15,869 nucleotides of DNA, taken from assembly GCA_020216625.1 (NCBI GenBank), contig JAIUYB010000004.1, positions 1-15,869 on the forward strand, written 5' to 3'. Each line of letters opens with the position of its first letter. Within the stretch, counting starts at the first letter, position 1. This DNA is from Desulfarculus sp. GTDB taxonomy: Bacteria > Desulfobacterota > Desulfarculia > Desulfarculales > Desulfarculaceae. The translations under genes were made by a program, and so were the position numbers. The notes beneath the pieces are model-generated. The model saw only the letters and a program-made list of their open reading frames with translations, searched no databases and had not been told where the DNA came from. This document shows, one piece after another, positions 1,648 through 14,874 of this stretch.

Positions 1648-2190
1648 CTAGGCCATCAGGTCCCAGGCCAGAAGCCCCAGCCAGAGCAGACTCACCGACC
1701 ACAGGTGGCGCGACAGGGGCCGGGGAGCCAGGCGGCGGGCCAGGGCCATGCCCCGCAGCAGCCACCAGGCCAGGCTGAGGCAAAGCAGGCTCAGCACCAG
1801 GGAGGGCGAGAGCATCAACAGGGGCGCGGTCAGCCCGGCCAAGTCCAGGGGCGGGTTGGAGGAGTAGTAGATCAGCAGCGGGCGCGCCAGGCTGGCGCCC
1901 AGCATGACTCCCGCCCCCAGCTCCACGGTCAGGGCCGGAAGGCCCGCCCACCAATAGCCGCGCCAGAGCAGATAGGTCAACACCCCGGCCAATCCGGCCA
2001 GGGACAACAGACCCAGGGGGCCCAACCCCCAGGCCGCCAGCAGGGCCTGGGGGTTGCTGACCAGCGTCACCAGCGCGACCACCGCCGGGGCGAGTCCGGC
2101 CATGGCCGCCCGCAGTTGCCGCCGGCGCAGGGCCAGGGCCGCCAGATCGTTCTCGCCGCGCAGGGCTCCGGTCATGATCGCTTCCCTCAT
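1648..2190 (-). CDS. Small multi-pass membrane protein of unknown function
   Basis: The 180-residue product is very rich in Leu and Ala. It has about five hydrophobic segments at roughly residues 29-46, 52-76, 80-102, 115-145 and 160-179, and a positively charged N-terminus (R21-R27) that should be cytoplasmic. The ATG at 2190 has AGGAG six bases upstream; an in-frame ATG at 2175 is an alternative. It is the last gene of the DUF4212-SSS symporter operon on the minus strand, 66 bp after the symporter stop, with a stable hairpin in between. I recognise no family. Its position suggests an accessory role to the symporter or plain co-transcription, which is inference. Confidence 0.7.
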   Translation of the reverse strand: MREAIMTGALRGENDLAALALRRRQLRAAMAGLAPAVVALVTLVSNPQALLAAWGLGPLGLLSLAGLAGVLTYLLWRGYWWAGLPALTVELGAGVMLGASLARPLLIYYSSNPPLDLAGLTAPLLMLSPSLVLSLLCLSLAWWLLRGMALARRLAPRPLSRHLWSVSLLWLGLLAWDLMA

Positions 2191-2256: not shown

Positions 2257-4122
2257 TTAATGCGCCGCAGCCGCGCCGGCGCCCTTGGGAATGCGAACGT
2301 GCTCCACGATGTCCTGGACATGCTGGGGCGGGGCCTTGGTGACCATGGACACCGCCCAGGCCGCGATGAAGTTGAAGCACATGCCCACGGTGCCAATGCC
2401 CTCGGGCGTGATGCCCAGGAACCAATTGGAGACGCCCATGAACTTGGTCTGGATGATGTAAGTGGCGGTGAAGACTATGCCCACCACCATGCCGGCGATG
2501 CACCCCTCCTTGGTGGTGCGCTTGGTGAAGATGCCCAGGATGATGATCGGGAAGAAGCTCGAGGCCGCCAGACCGAAGGCGAAGGCCACCACCTGGGCCA
2601 CGAACGCCGGGGGATAGACCCCGAAGTAACCGGCCGCGCAGACCGCCACGCCGATCATCACCCGGGCCACGGTGAGCCGCTGCTTCTCGGTGGCGTTCTT
2701 GTTGATGACCCGGTAGTAGAGGTCGTGGCTGATGGCCGAGCCCACCACCAGGAGCAGGCCGGCGGCGGTGGAGAGCGCCGCGGCCAGGCCGCCGGCCGCC
2801 ACCAGGGCGATGACCCAGGGCGGCAACGAGGCGATCTCCGGGTTGGCCAGCACCATGATGTCCTGGTCCACGTACAGCTCGTTCTTGTTGGTGGTGGCCT
2901 GGTTCTTGATCAGGGGTTGGCCGAACTTGCCGGTCTGACCGGAAAATTCAGGCTTGCCCGCGAAGGCCGCGCCGGCCGAGTAGTGGATGCGTCCATCGCC
3001 GGCCTTGTCGAACCAGATGATCAGGCCGGTCTTTTCCCAGTTCTTGAACCAACTGGGCGCCAATTGATCCGCGTATTGGGCCCGCATGGCGGCCAGGGCG
3101 GCCGGGTCGCTGGGCAGGGTTATGCCCTTGGCCTGAGCCATGATCTCCAGGCTGTAGTACTTGCCGTTGAGGGAGTTGATCATGTTGTAGCGGGCGAAGG
3201 CCGCCACCGCCGGGGCGGTGGTGTAGAGCAGGGCGATGAAGACCAGGGCCCAGCCGGCGCTGATGCGGGCCGCCCGCACGCTGGGCACGGTGTAGAAGCG
3301 GATGATGACGTGCGGCAGGCCGGCGGTGCCCACCATCAGGGCGAAGGTGATGCAGAAAACGTTGAGCATGTTGGTGGCTTCGTTGGCGAAGGTGGCCGTG
3401 TAGGCATGGAAGCCCAGATCCTTGGCTATCAAGTCCAGGGTGTCCAGCAGGTACTTGCCCGCGTCGGGACCCGAGGAGATGGTGCTGCCGAAGCCGATCT
3501 GCGGGATCGGCACCCCGGTGACGTGGGAGCTGATGGCCCAGGCCGGGATCAGGTAGGCGACGATCAGCACGCAGTACTGCGCCACCTGGGTCCAGGTGAT
3601 GCCCTTCATGCCGCCCAGGGTGGCGTAGATGAAGACGATGATCATGCCGACGATCACGCCGGTGTTGATCGGCACCTCCAGGAACCGGCTGAAGACGATG
3701 CCCACGCCGCGCATCTGGCCGGCGACGTAGGTGAAGCTGACGAAGATGGCGCAGGCCGCCGCCACCAGGCGGGCGGTGTCGGAGTAATAGCGGTCGCCCA
3801 CGAAGTCGGGCACCGTGAACTTGCCGAACTTGCGCAGATAGGGGGCCAGCAACAGGGCCAAGAGCACGTAGCCCCCGGTCCAGCCCATCAGGTAGTAGCA
3901 GCCGGGATAGCCCAGGAAGCTGATCAATCCGGCCATGGAGATGAAGCTGGCCGCGCTCATCCAGTCGGCGCCGGTGGCCATGCCGTTGGCCACCGGGGGC
4001 ACGCCCATGCCCGCCACGTAGAAGCCCTTGACGTCCTGCACCCGTGAGCGCCAGGCGATGACAATGTAGAGAGCGAAGGTGAGGCCGACGATCACGTAGG
4101 TCCAAATCAGGATCTCTGACAT
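2257..4122 (-). CDS. Large sodium:solute symporter subunit, SSS family, VC_2705 type
   Basis: The 621-residue permease has many membrane helices in the LeuT-like SSS pattern. Family landmarks include the N-terminal G-A-D-W-M-S-A-A-S-F segment (51-60, the TM2 region), the G-G-M-K-G-I-T-W loop (170-177) and G-L-P-H-V-I-I-R-F-Y-T-V-P (268-280). A hydrophilic insertion at about 315-430, absent from the neighbouring ActP-like protein, is characteristic of the VC_2705 subfamily that works with a DUF4212 small subunit. The small-subunit gene lies directly upstream with a 15-bp gap. The ATG at 4122 is preceded by GGGAGGG. Family members import short-chain carboxylates with sodium, but the exact substrate cannot be read from the sequence; acetate or lactate-like acids are reasonable guesses. 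The hydrophilic C-terminus ends in an Ala-rich tail. Confidence 0.9.
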   Translation of the reverse strand: MSEILIWTYVIVGLTFALYIVIAWRSRVQDVKGFYVAGMGVPPVANGMATGADWMSAASFISMAGLISFLGYPGCYYLMGWTGGYVLLALLLAPYLRKFGKFTVPDFVGDRYYSDTARLVAAACAIFVSFTYVAGQMRGVGIVFSRFLEVPINTGVIVGMIIVFIYATLGGMKGITWTQVAQYCVLIVAYLIPAWAISSHVTGVPIPQIGFGSTISSGPDAGKYLLDTLDLIAKDLGFHAYTATFANEATNMLNVFCITFALMVGTAGLPHVIIRFYTVPSVRAARISAGWALVFIALLYTTAPAVAAFARYNMINSLNGKYYSLEIMAQAKGITLPSDPAALAAMRAQYADQLAPSWFKNWEKTGLIIWFDKAGDGRIHYSAGAAFAGKPEFSGQTGKFGQPLIKNQATTNKNELYVDQDIMVLANPEIASLPPWVIALVAAGGLAAALSTAAGLLLVVGSAISHDLYYRVINKNATEKQRLTVARVMIGVAVCAAGYFGVYPPAFVAQVVAFAFGLAASSFFPIIILGIFTKRTTKEGCIAGMVVGIVFTATYIIQTKFMGVSNWFLGITPEGIGTVGMCFNFIAAWAVSMVTKAPPQHVQDIVEHVRIPKGAGAAAAH

Positions 4123-4137: not shown

Positions 4138-4389
4138 CTATTCTTCCACGTCGAATTCACGGTCAAGCTTTCTCATCGCGGCGCAGTAGACGAATATCAA
4201 TGCCACGAAAACGTAGATGGACCCCTGCTGGGCGAACCAGAAGCCCAGCGGAAAGCCTCCCATGCGGATGTGGTTGAGCTGGTTGACCAGGAAGATCGGC
4301 AGGACGTAGCCCACCAGGAACCAGATCCCCAATAGCACCAGCAGCAACTTGAGGTTGCGCAGCCAGTACTGCTTCAGGTCCTTTTCCAT
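4138..4389 (-). CDS. DUF4212 small symporter subunit
   Basis: This 83-residue protein starts MEKDLKQYWLRNLKLL and has two transmembrane helices at about residues 13-34 and 48-70, followed by an acidic tail ending D-V-E-E. The Y-W-x-x-N-L start, the central G-F-P-L-G-F-W-F-A-Q-Q-G-S segment and the size are those of DUF4212, the small partner of VC_2705-type sodium symporters. I chose the ATG at 4389 because AAGGAGG lies about eleven bases upstream and the family begins near this residue; a longer frame from 4428 adds 13 charged residues without support. It is the first gene of its operon. The partner permease follows after 15 bp, so the two are probably made together and act as a complex in the inner membrane. 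Confidence 0.9.
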   Translation of the reverse strand: MEKDLKQYWLRNLKLLLVLLGIWFLVGYVLPIFLVNQLNHIRMGGFPLGFWFAQQGSIYVFVALIFVYCAAMRKLDREFDVEE

Positions 4390-4609
4390 AACCCTACTTC
4401 CCTCCTTTTCCGGCCGCCTCCGGCCCATGCCTCCTCTTGACTTAATGGCTCCCCAGAAGCGCGTGTCTTGTGTAATTGTGAATGTTCCCTTGTGCCAGTC
4501 TAGGAGGAGGCCCCGGGGGGTTGTCTATGGGGGGCAACCCGTATTGCTGGGGCGGGAAAGCCCTACTTTTGTGCGGTTGTGAATTATGGCGCGGGCTGGT
4601 CGGGCGATT
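4390..4609 (-). other. Leader and promoter region of the DUF4212-SSS operon
   Basis: There is no gene here. The stretch contains the conserved element (4523-4568) and, downstream on the minus strand, a relatively AT-rich segment at 4455-4490 where a promoter is expected. I could not find a convincing -35/-10 pair. The segment before the start codon is purine rich and carries the ribosome binding site. Confidence 0.5.
4523..4568 (-). promoter_or_regulatory. Copy B of a conserved 46-bp element upstream of the DUF4212-SSS operon
   Basis: Read on the minus strand (the direction of the operon), the blocks are AAGTAGGG, 16 bp, ATACGGG, 4 bp, CCCCCAT, 1 bp, GAC. The same blocks occur at 6751-6795 before the yjcH-actP operon. 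The ATACGGG and CCCCCAT blocks form an imperfect 18-bp dyad. A second dyad, GGGTTG (4518-4523) with CAACCC (4535-4540), surrounds the G-run. The element ends 133 bp before the DUF4212 start codon. An activator or repressor binding site is the likely role. Confidence 0.6.
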
Positions 4610-4637
4610 AAAAAAGGCGCGCCCTGGTGGACGCGCC
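4610..4637 (-). terminator. Rho-independent terminator of the yjcH-actP operon
   Basis: On the minus strand a stem of GGCGCG (4632-4637) with CGCGCC (4616-4621) and a ten-base loop is followed directly by six T residues (4610-4615). It lies about 55 bp after the actP stop codon and cleanly separates the two symporter operons. Confidence 0.8.
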
Positions 4638-4650
4638 CGACGGTTGGGAT

Positions 4651-4677
4651 CGGCGGCGGGGCGACGCCCCGCCGCCG
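4651..4677 (-). other. 13-bp GC-rich hairpin just after actP
   Basis: A perfect 27-bp palindrome with one central base (4664) begins about 15 bp after the actP stop and precedes the U-tailed terminator. No U-run follows it. It may protect the 3' end of the mRNA or act together with the terminator. Confidence 0.5.
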
Positions 4678-4691
4678 GCGGGTGACGAAAC

Positions 4692-6260
4692 CTACTCCGC
4701 GCCCACCCCCAGGTAGGTGCGCAGCTTCTGGTCCACGAACTTGGCCTCGGCCTCCTTCTCCTGGGTGGCCAGGGAGACCAGCCAGCCGGCCACGAAGGCC
4801 AGGGACATGGAGATGATGGCCGGGTTGCGCAGGCCGATGATCGGCTGCGGGTTCTTGAGCACGTCCACCCAGACGGTGGGGCTCAGGATGATCATCCCGG
4901 CCGAGACCGCGGTGCCCACCAGGATCGACCAGACCGCGCCCTGGGTGGTGAACTTCTTCCAGACGATGGACAAGAGCAGGGCCGGGAAGTTGGCGCTGCA
5001 GGCGATGGCGAAGGTCAGGCCCACCATGTAGGCCACGTTTTGGCCCTTGAACAGGATGCCCAACAGCACCGCGCAGGTGCCGAAGATCACGGTGGCGATC
5101 TTGGCCACCTTGACCTGCTCCTTCTCGCTGGCCTCGCCGTGCTTGACCACGTTGACGTAGATGTCGTGGGACAGCGCCGAGGCCCCGGCCAGGGTCAGGC
5201 CGGCCACCACCGCCAGAATGGTGGCGAAGGCCACCGCGGCGATGAAGCCCAGGAAGGGGGTGCCGCCCAGCAGCTCGGCCAGGAGCGGCGCGGCCATGTT
5301 GCCGCCGGCGTCGATGCCGGTGATGACGCTGCGCCCCACCAGCACGCTGGCCCCGAAGCCCACGATGGGGATGATGCAGTAGAAGTAGCCGATGAACCCG
5401 GTGGCGTAGAGCACGCTCTTGCGGGCGGCCTTGGCGTCGGGCACGGTGTAGAAGCGCATCAGGATGTGGGGCAGGCCCAGGAGGCCGAACATCAGGGCCA
5501 GACCCAGACTGACGGCCTCCAGCGGGCTGGTGACCAGGCTGCCGGGCTCCAGGGCGGTCTGGCCGTACTTGGCCGCCACCGCGCTATAGAGCGCCCCCGG
5601 GCTGAAACCGAACTGGGCCAGCACCAGGATGGTCAGCAGGGTGACGCCAAACAGCAGCAGCACCGCCTTGATGATCTGCACCCAGGTGGTGGCGATCATG
5701 CCGCCGAAGAGCACGTAGGCCAGCATCACCACGCCCACGATGATCTCGGCCACCTCGTAGGGGATGCCGAACATCAGCTTGATCAGGCTGCCCGAGCCCA
5801 CCATCTGGGCGATGGTGTAGGTGAGCAGGGTGATCACGCCGCCGATGGCGCTGGCGATGCGCACCGGGCGCTGCTTGAGGCGGAAGGCCACCACGTCGGC
5901 GAAGGTGTACTTGCCCAGGTTGCGCAGGGGCTCGGCGATGAGGAACATCAGGGCCGGCCAGCCCACCAGCCAACCCACGGCGTAGATCATGCCGTCATAA
6001 CCCTTGAGCGAGGTGAGCCCGGCGATGCCCAGGAAGGAGGCCGCCGACATGTAGTCGCCCGACAGGGCGAAGCCGTTCTGCAGGCCGCTGACGCTGCGGC
6101 CGGCGGCGTAGAACTCCTTGGTGGTCCGGGTGCGCTTGGCCGCCCAATAGGTGATGGCCAGGGTCAGGGCCACGATAACGAAGAAAAAGATGATGGCTTC
6201 GACGGTGGGTGTGCCCAGCGTCGTCTTGATCGCCTGTTCCGCGGCTGCTTGCATTGTCAT
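4692..6260 (-). CDS. actP: ActP-like cation/acetate symporter (SSS family)
   Basis: The 522-residue inner-membrane permease has the SSS pattern of about 13 helices. Landmarks are K-E-F-Y-A-A-G-R (48-55), the G-D-Y-M-S-A-A-S-F-L-G segment (68-78), G-G-M-I-A-T-T-W-V-Q (186-195), G-L-P-H-I-L-M-R-F-Y-T-V-P (262-274) and A-S-A-L-S-H-D-I-Y-V in the second half. Length and motifs fit ActP (about 549 residues in E. coli), which takes up acetate and related short-chain acids with a cation. The DUF485 partner gene lies 12 bp upstream, as in the yjcH-actP arrangement, but no acs gene (acetyl-CoA synthetase) is in the window. The ATG at 6260 follows AAGGGGGGA; an in-frame ATG at 6254 is also possible. 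Substrate is inferred from family and context. Confidence 0.9.
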   Translation of the reverse strand: MTMQAAAEQAIKTTLGTPTVEAIIFFFVIVALTLAITYWAAKRTRTTKEFYAAGRSVSGLQNGFALSGDYMSAASFLGIAGLTSLKGYDGMIYAVGWLVGWPALMFLIAEPLRNLGKYTFADVVAFRLKQRPVRIASAIGGVITLLTYTIAQMVGSGSLIKLMFGIPYEVAEIIVGVVMLAYVLFGGMIATTWVQIIKAVLLLFGVTLLTILVLAQFGFSPGALYSAVAAKYGQTALEPGSLVTSPLEAVSLGLALMFGLLGLPHILMRFYTVPDAKAARKSVLYATGFIGYFYCIIPIVGFGASVLVGRSVITGIDAGGNMAAPLLAELLGGTPFLGFIAAVAFATILAVVAGLTLAGASALSHDIYVNVVKHGEASEKEQVKVAKIATVIFGTCAVLLGILFKGQNVAYMVGLTFAIACSANFPALLLSIVWKKFTTQGAVWSILVGTAVSAGMIILSPTVWVDVLKNPQPIIGLRNPAIISMSLAFVAGWLVSLATQEKEAEAKFVDQKLRTYLGVGAE

Positions 6261-6272
6261 TCCCCCCTTGTC

Positions 6273-6569
6273 CTAGAGCTGTTCCTTGAGGCGCTTGACC
6301 TCGTTGTCATAGGAGGTGTTGGCCCAGATCACGTAGATCACGGTCAGCACCCAGGACAGCACGATGACCAACACCCCCAGGGGGATGCCCAGGGTGGTGG
6401 ACTGCCCCACCTTCTGGGCCAGAAAGGGCTTGTCCACCGCCACCAGCAGGATGTAGCCGTAGTAGATGATGAACAGAAGGGCGGTGAGCACGATGGAAAC
6501 CGTCCAGCGCTTGCTCACCAGGCTTTTGAACTCCCGTGAGGAGAGCATCTCCTCCGCCGACTTGGCCAT
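6273..6569 (-). CDS. yjcH: DUF485 membrane protein (YjcH-like), ActP partner
   Basis: This 98-residue protein has two transmembrane helices at about residues 24-47 and 60-84, with a charged cytoplasmic C-terminus (K-R-L-K-E-Q-L). The N-terminal F-K-x-L-V-x-K-R-W segment and P-L-G-V-L-V-I-V in the second helix are typical of DUF485/YjcH. The start at 6569 is preceded by GGAGGT at ideal spacing; longer frames upstream have no support. It is the first gene of the operon with actP. In family operons it is always found beside the symporter and is presumed to be a small accessory subunit, but its biochemical role is not established. Confidence 0.9.
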   Translation of the reverse strand: MAKSAEEMLSSREFKSLVSKRWTVSIVLTALLFIIYYGYILLVAVDKPFLAQKVGQSTTLGIPLGVLVIVLSWVLTVIYVIWANTSYDNEVKRLKEQL

Positions 6570-6750
6570 ACGCACCTCCGACTGGGTTGATTGGAGTCGC
6601 CTGGTCCGGGGCTCGCGCCCCCGGCCCCGTGTCCGGAGAGGCCGGGGTGGCGGCGGTTGGCCCTCCCGCTGCACCGCCGCCGATGGCGGCCCCGCGACCA
6701 GGAAGAGGACTCGCCACCATGGCTCATCATGTGGCGGGGCCCAGGCGGGC

Positions 6751-6795
6751 GTCCATGGGGGATGCCCCGTATTTCGTTGGAGGTTGCCCCTACTT
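6751..6795 (-). promoter_or_regulatory. Copy A of the conserved element upstream of yjcH-actP
   Basis: Read on the minus strand, it contains AAGTAGGG (6788-6795), 15 bp, ATACGGG (6766-6772), 4 bp, CCCCCAT (6755-6761), 1 bp and GAC (6751-6753). The blocks, order and spacing match copy B at 4523-4568 with one base less in the first spacer. A surrounding dyad (GGGC at 6747-6750 with GCCC at 6764-6767) is kept despite different bases from copy B. It ends about 180 bp upstream of the yjcH start codon. Confidence 0.6.
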
Positions 6796-8131: not shown

Positions 8132-9067
8132 ATGGAAAAGAAGCTCTTGATCGCCATCGACGGCAGTCCTTCCGCCGAGCGGGCGGTGGACTACGTGGGC
8201 CTGATGGAAGGGGCCATGATCCGGGAGCTGAAGGCCACCCTCTACTATGTCATGAACCCGGTGCCCCCTTACTTGCAGCGGGAGGCCCAACGCGACCCGG
8301 ACGCCTTCCGCCGCCTGACCGCCCTGCAGGCCAAGAACCGCGAGCAGGCCACCAAAGTGCTGGAGCACGCCCGTCAGCGCCTGTTGCGCCATGGCCTGAA
8401 AGAGGAGCAGGTGGAGCTCAAGGCCCACCCCCGCACCTCGGCCGTCGCCCAGGACATTCTTTTCGAGGCCGAGCAGGGCCTCTACGACGCGGTGGTCCTG
8501 GGCCGCCGGGGGCTCAGCAAGGCCCAGGAGCTGTTCATGGGCAGCGTCACCAACCAGGTGGTGCAGCACGCCCAACGGGTGCCGGTCTGGGTGGTGGGCG
8601 GCCGGGTGACCAGTCTCAAGGTCCTCTGCGCGGTGGATGGCAGCGAGGGTAGCCTCAAGGCGGTGGACCACCTGGCCTACATGCTGGGCCAGAATCCGGA
8701 GGTGGAGATCACCCTGCTGCACGTGGGGGCGGTGTTGGCCTCCTATTGCCCGGTGGAGTTCGGCCAGGACCTGGCCCGGGAGATCGAGGGCGACCTGATG
8801 CACTCGGACCAGGAATGCATGGACGACTTCATGACCCGGGCCTTGAAGGTCCTGGCCGAGGGCGGCTTGGAGCCCGCCCAGATCCAGGTGGCCCTGGTGG
8901 AAGGGGCCCTGGGGGTGTCCAAGGCCATCCTCAAGGCCGCCAGCGAAGGGGATTTCGGAACCGTGGTCCTGGGCCGACGGGGCGAGAACCGCTCCTTCTT
9001 TTTGGGTCACGTCAGCGACAAGGTTCTGTCCGGAGCCGAGGACTCCGCGGTTTGGGTGGTGGGTTAA
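8132..9067 (+). CDS. Tandem universal stress protein (two UspA domains)
   Basis: The 311-residue cytoplasmic protein has two UspA domains, at about residues 1-156 and 160-311. Each starts with a strand ending in the nucleotide-contacting Asp (I-A-I-D-G-S, D10; C-A-V-D-G-S, D169). The first domain carries the complete ATP-binding motif G-x2-G-x9-G-S (G124, G127, G137, S138). The second has G281-x2-G284, then only seven residues to G292-H293, so it lacks the usual spacing and the Ser/Thr. This suggests that only the first domain binds ATP in the usual way. The ATG at 8132 lies behind a purine-rich GGGGGCG; upstream extensions overlap the preceding gene. The stop codon overlaps the next start (TAATG), so the hydrolase is translationally coupled. 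The role is likely stress adaptation. Confidence 0.9.
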   Translation: MEKKLLIAIDGSPSAERAVDYVGLMEGAMIRELKATLYYVMNPVPPYLQREAQRDPDAFRRLTALQAKNREQATKVLEHARQRLLRHGLKEEQVELKAHPRTSAVAQDILFEAEQGLYDAVVLGRRGLSKAQELFMGSVTNQVVQHAQRVPVWVVGGRVTSLKVLCAVDGSEGSLKAVDHLAYMLGQNPEVEITLLHVGAVLASYCPVEFGQDLAREIEGDLMHSDQECMDDFMTRALKVLAEGGLEPAQIQVALVEGALGVSKAILKAASEGDFGTVVLGRRGENRSFFLGHVSDKVLSGAEDSAVWVVG

Positions 9068-13568: not shown

Positions 13569-14225
13569 TCAGCCGGACACAGGCTGGCGCGAGAGTGTGT
13601 CAATCAGGCCACAGTCCCTGGCCCGAACCTCGGCCTCGGCCAGATCCTCGGGCCGGTTGAGGTTCAGGAAACTCAGCCCCTCGGGGTCCAGCGTCCGCAC
13701 CTCCTCCGGGTCCAGGGTGGCCAGGCGCACCGTCTCCACCAGGCGGCGGATCCGGGTCTCGCCCTGGGCCAGCAGGCGTTGGGCCGGGGGCAGGCAGGCC
13801 CGGGAGTAATAGGCCAGCAGGTACTCGGGCCAGCCCTGGGGTCCGATGGGGGCCAGGACCTGGGGCGGCCGGGGCTGGGCCTGGGCTTGGGCCAGGCGGC
13901 GCAACAGGGCCGGCCGGGCCAGGGGCAGGTCCACCGCCAGCAACAGCACCCCCTGGGCGTCGGTGTCCAGCAAGGCGGTGACCAGGGCCGCCAGGGGGCC
14001 CTGGCCCGGCCAACGGTCGGTGATGATGGTCCGGGGCAGGTCGGCCATCTCCGCCGCGTCGGCGGCCAGCACCACCACTTGGTCGCAGGCTTGGTCCAGG
14101 GCGTCCAGGGACCATTCGATCAGCGGCCGTCCGCCCAGGGTCCGCCAGGGCTTGCCCCCGCCCATGCGCCGTCCCGGACCCCCGGCCAACAGCACCCCCA
14201 CCAGGCCGGCCGGGGCCGGGCTCAC
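13569..14225 (-). CDS. mobA: Molybdenum cofactor guanylyltransferase
   Basis: This 218-residue cytoplasmic enzyme attaches GMP to molybdopterin to form the guanine dinucleotide cofactor used by formate dehydrogenases and related oxidoreductases. The N-terminal nucleotide-binding motif L-A-G-G-P-G-R-R-M-G-G-G-K-P (13-26), the G-P-L-A-A-L segment (76-81), the metal-binding Asp in A-V-D-L-P-L (97-102) and N-L-N-R-P-E-D-L (188-195) are those of MobA. I chose a GTG start at 14225 because it gives the family's N-terminus and overlaps the upstream merR stop codon (GTGA). The frame stays open farther upstream, but that part is only antiphase to merR. It is slightly longer than the 194-residue E. coli MobA because of a short C-terminal extension. 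Confidence 0.9.
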   Translation of the reverse strand: MSPAPAGLVGVLLAGGPGRRMGGGKPWRTLGGRPLIEWSLDALDQACDQVVVLAADAAEMADLPRTIITDRWPGQGPLAALVTALLDTDAQGVLLLAVDLPLARPALLRRLAQAQAQPRPPQVLAPIGPQGWPEYLLAYYSRACLPPAQRLLAQGETRIRRLVETVRLATLDPEEVRTLDPEGLSFLNLNRPEDLAEAEVRARDCGLIDTLSRQPVSG

Positions 14226-14644
14226 TCCCGGACCTCCATCGGACCCCGGCCGCTGGATTCCAGGATGCGCATCCGTTCCTGACCCTTGGCCAGCCAGACC
14301 GCGCAGTGCTCGCAGGGGCCGGCGCAGAGGGTCTCGGCCTGGTTGCGAATCTCGTAACAGGGGCGATGGGGTTCCTGGAAGGCGGCGCAGCTCTGCCGTT
14401 GCAAACAGGCGAAGATGTTCCAACAAGGGGCCAGGACCAAGAGGTTGCGCAGGCAGGCCAGGGTGAAGCCATGCTCGTGGATGAGTTGGGTGATGCGCCG
14501 GATCTGGGCCACCTCGAACTCGGAATAGAGGCGGTTGTTGGTGCGCGGCTCGCGCCGGGGGCGGATGAAGCCCTCCTTCTCGTATTCCCGGATGCGCTTT
14601 TGTGAGAGGTCCACGGTGCGGGAGACATCGTTGATCAGGTACAT
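14222..14644 (-). CDS. MerR-family regulator with C-terminal cysteine cluster
   Basis: The 140-residue protein has a MerR-type winged helix at about residues 1-70, with V-D-L-S-Q-K-R-I-R-E-Y-E-K-E-G-F-I (11-27) and N-N-R-L-Y (36-40). The C-terminal half has eight cysteines: C64, C74, C80, C86, C96, C107, C111 and C114. C74 is followed by W and C96 by Y-E, and the set ends with C-x3-C-x2-C. This looks like a metal or iron-sulfur binding sensor, not the classical mercury or SoxR pattern. The ATG at 14644 lies behind GGGGAG and begins at the normal MerR N-terminus. Its stop overlaps the mobA start by four bases. It probably regulates its own operon and perhaps molybdoenzyme genes, which is inference. 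Confidence 0.85.
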   Translation of the reverse strand: MYLINDVSRTVDLSQKRIREYEKEGFIRPRREPRTNNRLYSEFEVAQIRRITQLIHEHGFTLACLRNLLVLAPCWNIFACLQRQSCAAFQEPHRPCYEIRNQAETLCAGPCEHCAVWLAKGQERMRILESSGRGPMEVRE

Positions 14645-14874
14645 GGGGCTCCCCGGCGTTGACGGTTCTATACGCAATTAGGTGCAAGCTGGCCGTTGAT
14701 AGCACATCCTCGGGGGCTTGGCAAGCCTCCGGACACCCTGGCGCCGCCGACCCTCGCGCTGGGCCTTGCCCCCGACCACCCCCGGAGGTTATCCTGGGCC
14801 AACCTTAACGGCCACGCCACACACCGGCGGGGGCGGCCGCCGCACCCAGAGCCAGCCCCCGGAAAGGGAGACCC
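14645..14874. other. Divergent intergenic region between merR-mobA and the TPR gene
   Basis: No gene is visible in these 230 bp. The half nearest merR (14655-14705) is AT-richer and should hold the promoters; TATAGA at 14667-14672 on the minus strand is a possible -10 box without a convincing -35. I found no clear MerR-type dyad. Confidence 0.4.

Follow-up and report, generated by a model that had tools for sequence, protein, structure and literature searches.

Two copies of a bipartite DNA element precede two different symporter operons in the 15,869-nucleotide stretch analysed here (the window, positions 1-15,869 of contig JAIUYB010000004.1 from Desulfarculus sp., genome G000, approximately 70% complete). 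Our analysis indicates that they are probably operators of a regulon for acetate uptake and activation in Desulfarculaceae, in which a sensor kinase carrying an SLC5 transporter domain would act together with a response regulator of the NarL/LuxR type. Comparative computation yielded the operator, the set of genes behind it, the spacing of its boxes as well as its linkage to and co-occurrence with the kinase and regulator genes, and the operator with its gene set is well supported. The lineage-restricted operator and the probable acetate regulon are new, while the general kind of system is already known; among the titles and abstracts listed by searches of open-licence PMC papers, none describes the motif or the regulon for Desulfarculaceae.

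Both elements were found on the minus strand exactly where a preliminary description of the window had placed them (Table 1). Their parts follow each other in the order given there, namely AAGTAGGG, 16 bp, ATACGGG, TTGC, CCCCCAT, A and GAC in copy A and AAGTAGGG, 15 bp, ATACGGG, GCAT, CCCCCAT, G and GAC in copy B, and the flanking leader sequence is, as also described, not common to the two copies. Two details had to be revised: GAC at the end is no general feature, GGC being found there most often among the sites presented below, and the intervening 15-16 bp, although of the length indicated, are not a mere spacer. They include the CCCC arm belonging to box 1, and the element therefore consists of two tandem boxes, (A/G)GTAGGG-N3/4-CCCC and ATACGGG-N4-CCCCCAT, at a distance of about 22 bp. 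Across the whole genome, the pattern AAGTAGGGN{13,18}ATACGGG is matched at the two places in the window only, and its reversed form is not matched at all. Taken by itself, the pair exceeds chance only marginally: the Smith-Waterman score of leader A against leader B (21) was reached by one of 60 Markov shuffles (mean 13.7, maximum 21).

It is the class-wide comparison that makes the two copies more than a marginal resemblance. When 63 genomes of the class were scanned with a strict two-box pattern, TAGGGN{12,20}TACGGGNNNNCCMCCAT, we obtained 29 sites in 17 genomes and no match to the reversed pattern. According to tblastn, 28 of the 29 sites are followed by one of four acetate-type gene sets, i.e., DUF4212-SSF (9 sites), DUF485-ActP (1), acs for acetyl-CoA synthetase (5, the assignment in G003 being based on 40 residues at a contig end) and a gene for a cNMP/CBS/DUF294 protein (13); loci L005-L008 were omitted from this tally. 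Strict sites therefore do not occur at random positions across the genome. The window genome contains four of them, the two in the window, one upstream of acs (contig C548) and one upstream of the cNMP/CBS/DUF294 gene (C535). The 29th site, in G021, is situated between a response regulator gene and a kinase gene; the 351-aa HisKA/HATPase protein encoded at L030:3588-4643 in this genome is the only product not of the acetate type behind a strict operator. Looser copies are not included in the 29 sites and precede DUF485 in G002, G004 and G052, DUF4212 in G009 and G010, acs in G008, G012 and G014, and DUF294 in G009 and G013. The 29 sites, with their 23 distinct box-2 words, served to build the scoring matrix, and only the looser copies and one copy in G087, a genome outside the class, are independent of it.

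In a scan of 84,980 species, represented by one genome each, a 20-base form of the operator was found at 12 loci, which were attributed to G001-G005, G009, G010, G012, G013, G015 and G017 (the attribution to G005 is not distinctive). The family of the genomes with these loci (f1) is the one we call Desulfarculaceae. Box-2 matches lacking box 1 in G060, G032 and G037 (3 of 23; reversed control 2) were dropped as chance, and so was a box-2 match in G087 (contig C163), the reversed control having given three matches in 98 genomes. With up to two mismatches allowed, box 2 was matched 60 times in the window genome as opposed to 145 times for the reversed control, and therefore no further targets are claimed there; the best extra match (C167, L114) sits in an open frame and lacks box 1.

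Orthologous target genes were likewise found to carry the operator. When 23 genomes were searched per gene, it was present upstream of 7 of 7 DUF4212, 3 of 4 DUF485 and 7 of 11 acs orthologues. The motif is thus conserved in front of orthologous symporter operons, the point on which the preliminary description had made its proposal of common regulation depend, and class-wide conservation before the same gene types supports a shared cis-regulation of both operons in the window. The DUF485 operator of G004 scores 30.4 (one of 100 shuffles reached 27.1). In G007, which lacks the regulator dealt with below, acs and the DUF294 homologue are both without operator.

A candidate for the DNA-binding protein is encoded next to the operator. 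The gene order in G017 is acetyl-CoA hydrolase-GNAT, kinase, response regulator, operator, DUF4212 and SSF, and the response regulator consists of Response_reg and GerE domains, i.e., it is of the NarL/LuxR type. Orthologous regulators (at least 62% identity) were detected in 16 of 62 genomes, and in 14 of these 16 class genomes the operator is located directly 3' of the regulator gene. Thirteen of the 14 have a symporter operon behind this operator, either DUF485 (G002, G004, G052) or DUF4212 (G008, G009, G010, G012-G015, G017-G019), and in G021 a kinase gene follows. The regulator-adjacent operator of G052 is a variant (score 23.6 versus a shuffle maximum of 15.4), and matrix-independent copies that outscored 200 shuffles are present after the regulator genes of G002, G004, G009, G010, G052 and the out-of-class G087. 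This linkage makes it likely that the binder is a response regulator of the NarL/LuxR type, as the preliminary description had supposed from the geometry of the element. Strict operator and regulator also co-occur: among the 62 genomes, both are present in 15 and neither in 44, while the regulator alone is found in one (G052) and the operator alone in two (G000, G001; Fisher p = 2e-11, uncorrected for kinship). Within family f1, the corresponding numbers are 14, 4, 0 and 2 (p = 0.003), and the genomes of this family in which both are absent are G006, G007, G011 and G016.

The G017 kinase combines an SLC5 transporter domain with a histidine kinase part. Its residues 7-616 match the SLC5 structure of CbrA (10ed_A, E = 1.6e-66) and its residues 811-1033 match DesK; Pfam reports PAS, HisKA_3 and HATPase_c domains and no receiver domain, and the Pfam SSF model did not reach E 0.001. 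No separate model match was obtained for STAC; 10ed_A, an SLC5-STAC construct, is aligned to its residue 584 of 606, and the sensor of the kinase may include STAC. Kinase genes are found beside acetyl-CoA hydrolase-GNAT in G001, G003, G008, G012, G014 and G017, and beside acs in G009 and G010. In the window genome, the orthologous kinase gene (C420:8056-10170 of 10173 bases, 64% identical over 706 residues) runs off the contig end, and the same applies to G001, another genome that is approximately 70% complete. G000 also encodes a second SLC5-type sensor kinase of 955 aa with a HisKA transmitter (C485:1978-4842, L153), which is about 44-47% identical to the first one over the sensor part.

At E 1e-75, the regulator was found in 16 of 395 genomes searched in the phylum, nine of them in other families. 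Downstream DNA was scored with the matrix for three of these nine out-of-class regulators (G067, G087, G261), G138 and G283 were scanned whole, and downstream DNA of G214, G245, G342 and G391 was judged by eye only. A clear operator follows the regulator gene in G087 (26.6 versus a maximum of 11.3 in 200 shuffles); G067 and G261 yielded 6.1 each, a value reached by 14 and 6 of 200 shuffles, respectively. By eye, tandem or palindromic words are present after the regulator genes of G214, G245, G261, G342 and G391. Downstream of six distant regulator paralogues (L050, L051, L056, L057, L058, L060), the matrix detected no operator (best score 3.5). At L162, L163 and L165 (G261, G214 and G342), regulator relatives are located upstream of other uptake-type genes, which by eye from their translated starts encode a GntP-like permease or a periplasmic-binding-type protein, and differing palindromic words lie in between.

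Alignment of the 29 sites gave GTAGGG-N3/4-CCCCC for box 1 and AATACGGG-TTT-CCCCCCAT-GG for box 2. The distance from GGG to GGG is 22 bp in 24 sites, 23 bp in four and 21 bp in one, and G018 has three boxes in a row, 22 bp apart as counted on the sequence. We read box 2 as a probable decayed 18-bp dyad, symmetry holding at 10 of 18 positions of the consensus and at 14 of 18 in the relative from G391. This word, ATGGGGG-N4-CCCCCAT, follows the G391 regulator gene and, together with the TTGGGGG-N4-CCCCCAT found before acs in G008, G012 and G014, belongs to the most symmetric relatives of box 2; the TAC-N10-GTA layout initially assumed for the element fails on both. Downstream of CCCCCAT, the word TAnnnT occurs at 22 nt in seven sites and at 23 nt in 19, i.e., in 26 of 29 altogether, and at any other offset between 0 and 59 it stays below 4 of 29; the exceptions are both window copies and G021. 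If TAnnnT is the -10 element, box 2 would extend from about -53 to -36 and the centre of box 1 would lie near -67. A transcribed RNA element was set aside because both boxes are upstream of the -10-like word; no search against RNA families was made.

Concerning the signal, the substrate (acetate), binding, activation and the positions of the promoters, we infer the following sequence of events. The membrane kinase, with its SLC5-transporter sensor, PAS domain and DesK/NarX-type HisKA_3 transmitter, would sense acetate or a related monocarboxylate and phosphorylate the NarL/LuxR-type response regulator, whose dimers would bind the two boxes on the same face of the DNA, the distance of about 22 bp corresponding to two helical turns. 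As box 2 would end near -36, the bound regulator could activate sigma-70 polymerase at target promoters that appear to have a -10-like element and to lack a recognisable -35 consensus. The predicted targets are acs, the DUF4212-SSF operon, the DUF485-ActP operon and the cNMP/CBS/DUF294 gene.

Acetate is the likely substrate of the ActP-like symporter encoded in the window (Table 1). The membrane-type protein at the end of the DUF4212-SSF operon, which has a counterpart at the same place in G017 (L029:4061-4900), is perhaps a third part of this symporter. Elsewhere in the window, positions 13569-14677 encode a MerR-type regulator (14222-14677) and then, on the same strand, a MobA-like NTP transferase domain.

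Table 1. Operator copies, their parts and the genes downstream of them in the window
Feature	Position	Strand	Remarks
Operator copy A (two boxes + AGAC)	4523..4568	-	upstream of DUF4212-SSF operon
Copy A box 1: AAGTAGGG-CTTT-CCC	4554..4568	-	
Copy A box 2: AATACGGG-TTGC-CCCCCAT	4527..4545	-	
Copy A possible -10 element TAGACT	4497..4502	-	24 nt past CCCCCAT; usual distance 22-23
DUF4212 small symporter subunit (TIGR03647)	4138..4389	-	
SSF symporter, VC_2705 family	2257..4122	-	TIGR03648, 823.6 bits, cut-off 320.75
Membrane-type protein without Pfam match, last in DUF4212-SSF operon	1648..2190	-	41% identical to same-place G017 protein
Operator copy B (two boxes + GGAC)	6751..6795	-	upstream of DUF485-ActP operon
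Copy B box 1: AAGTAGGGGCAACC	6782..6795	-	
Copy B box 2: AATACGGG-GCAT-CCCCCAT	6755..6773	-	
Copy B possible -10 element CATGAT	6726..6731	-	23 nt past CCCCCAT; C replaces usual first T
DUF485 protein	6273..6569	-	
ActP-like SSF symporter	4692..6260	-	closest NCBIfam model NF006903 ActP, 698.2 bits, cut-off 750

Several observations weigh against an acetate regulon run by this kinase and regulator. The regulator gene was not found in the approximately 70% complete window genome, G003 and G005 have the regulator and no operator adjoining it, and the operator is missing before DUF485 of G001 and before acs of G001, G002, G004 and G007. DUF294 gave 36 matches, 30 of them as loci and 29 of these scored (L204 has no upstream DNA), and only 12 of the 29 carry an operator (scores above 26), paralogues without it being common. 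Both window copies deviate from the usual -10 word or distance. Outside the class, no matrix match of at least 14 was detected in the DNA scanned for G067, G138 and G283, and the operator score of G261 is one that shuffles equalled. The co-occurrence statistics are uncorrected for kinship, the ActP-like symporter of the window falls below the cut-off of the ActP model, and it is by family resemblance only that acetate is suggested as the substrate. Some of these points, namely the operators of G000 and G001 in genomes where no regulator gene was found and the regulators of G003 and G005, would also be expected if operator and regulon were real and another transcription factor bound the element, the kinase/regulator pair being a mere neighbour or itself a regulated gene set; linkage and co-occurrence do not equal binding. 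We consider this unlikely: in 14 of 16 class genomes the operator directly follows the regulator gene despite differing types of downstream transporter, the same arrangement recurs outside the class in G087, regulator and operator are jointly absent from four members of the same family, and the paired-box geometry suits a NarL/LuxR regulator such as RpuR.

Far less probable still is that a genuine CrbS/CrbR system is present and the element is its ACTU operator, CrbR having been the regulator named in the preliminary description. The proposed targets do overlap with those of Pseudomonas fluorescens CrbR, which in the excerpted text of PMC5715377 include acs, DUF485-actP and a protein with cAMP-binding, CBS and nucleotidyltransferase domains, the kinase carries an SLC5 sensor as in CrbS/CrbR, and the position inferred for box 2 resembles that of the ACTU motif (-52 to -36; PMC5715377, same excerpt). 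However, the G017 regulator orthologue reaches only 78.2 bits with the NCBIfam model for ErdR (CrbR), the cut-off of which is 390, and the transmitter belongs to the HisKA_3/DesK type and no receiver domain was found, in contrast to the hybrid kinase CrbS. Moreover, an ACTU-core word, searched with our own summary of the sequences in Table 4 of PMC5715377 (excerpt), is absent from both window leaders and present in 2 of the 29 sites, and the window holds a single near-match (8159-8171), fewer than the three that chance would give. On account of regulator model, motif and kinase type, we reject CrbR/ACTU. The idea that the copies resemble each other by chance, or that a functionless piece of leader was duplicated, deserves next to no credence. 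It could draw on the leaders alone, which barely exceed shuffles, and on the excess of reversed-control over box-2 matches at two mismatches, but the strict two-box pattern is limited to four gene sets in the window genome, precedes the same kinds of genes in 16 more genomes without any reversed match, and is embedded in leaders that otherwise differ. Marginal as the pair alone may be, class-wide strict-site counts and downstream genes lead us to reject this idea.

Several known systems resemble the proposed acetate regulon of Desulfarculaceae in part. In CrbS/CrbR (MxtR/ErdR), overlapping targets and a promoter-proximal operator are likewise combined with an SLC5 sensor kinase and a LuxR-type regulator; the P. 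fluorescens CrbR targets in the excerpt of PMC5715377 are acs, DUF485-actP, Pflu5625, which is the protein with cAMP-binding, CBS and nucleotidyltransferase domains, and the acyl-CoA hydrolase Pflu0110. The regulator subfamily, the kinase transmitter and the operator sequence differ. The P. fluorescens acs primers in the primer table of PMC5715377, as excerpted, contain GTAGGGGC just upstream of ACTU and no second copy 22 bp away, so that its presence is perhaps due to chance. MctS/MctR of rhizobia are the best NCBIfam matches, the regulator scoring 180.7 bits with MctR and the transmitter part of the kinase 155.7 bits with MctS, but both scores are below the cut-offs (300 and 700, respectively), and MctS senses via a Cache domain and not an SLC5 domain (PMC9100948, in part). 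The CbrA SLC5-STAC transceptor (PDB 10ED; PMC13022988, in part) has the same transporter-type sensor, while the transmitter of the Desulfarculaceae kinase matches DesK. Among the response-regulator motifs of D. vulgaris in the part of PMC3333781 consulted, none was seen to match the two-box operator.

The closest parallel in layout is RpuS/RpuR, which acts on the mctP operon of Sinorhizobium fredii NGR234 through a tandem direct repeat with a 22-bp period. In the unannotated pNGR234b record, two copies of GCGAAAGTAGGG stand ahead of the mctP operon at a distance of 22 bp, and AAGTAGGG is thereby repeated at exactly 22 bp, the same word and the usual period of the Desulfarculaceae operator; in both window copies AAGTAGGG constitutes box 1, but box 2 reads AATACGGG. 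As in Desulfarculaceae, a monocarboxylate symporter operon is located downstream, and an SLC5 kinase and a LuxR-type regulator are involved (PMC9100948, in part). According to the same excerpt, the RpuR repeat spans -80 to -43, a -10 box and no -35 box was identified, and promoter activity fell to about 40% when AGTAG of the second repeat was replaced by TTGCA. On the other hand, RpuR is only 25% identical to the Desulfarculaceae regulator, and their common layout is therefore no proof of orthology and may be due to convergence. RpuS, picked by its position in the unannotated record, has HisKA and a receiver domain instead of HisKA_3, CCCC arms are not evident in S. fredii, and the excerpt of PMC9100948 reports that the repeat was not found at other candidate genes of RpuR, as opposed to four gene sets here. 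It is conceivable, and we put it forward tentatively, that a CrbR-type set of acetate targets was kept in Desulfarculaceae and that the sensor output, the regulator and the operator were replaced, the operator code (AAGTAGGG, 22-bp period) being as in RpuR. If the target set was kept, the new machine would comprise an SLC5 transceptor, a DesK-type transmitter, another NarL/LuxR subfamily and a tandem operator, which suggests that an acetate regulon with CrbR-type targets may be operated through another sensor output, another regulator and another operator. For a family of bacteria related to sulfate reducers, the analysis provides an operator, a probable regulator and an acetate regulon of four gene sets, and it connects a defined DNA site with a kinase that has a transporter-type sensor and a DesK-type transmitter.

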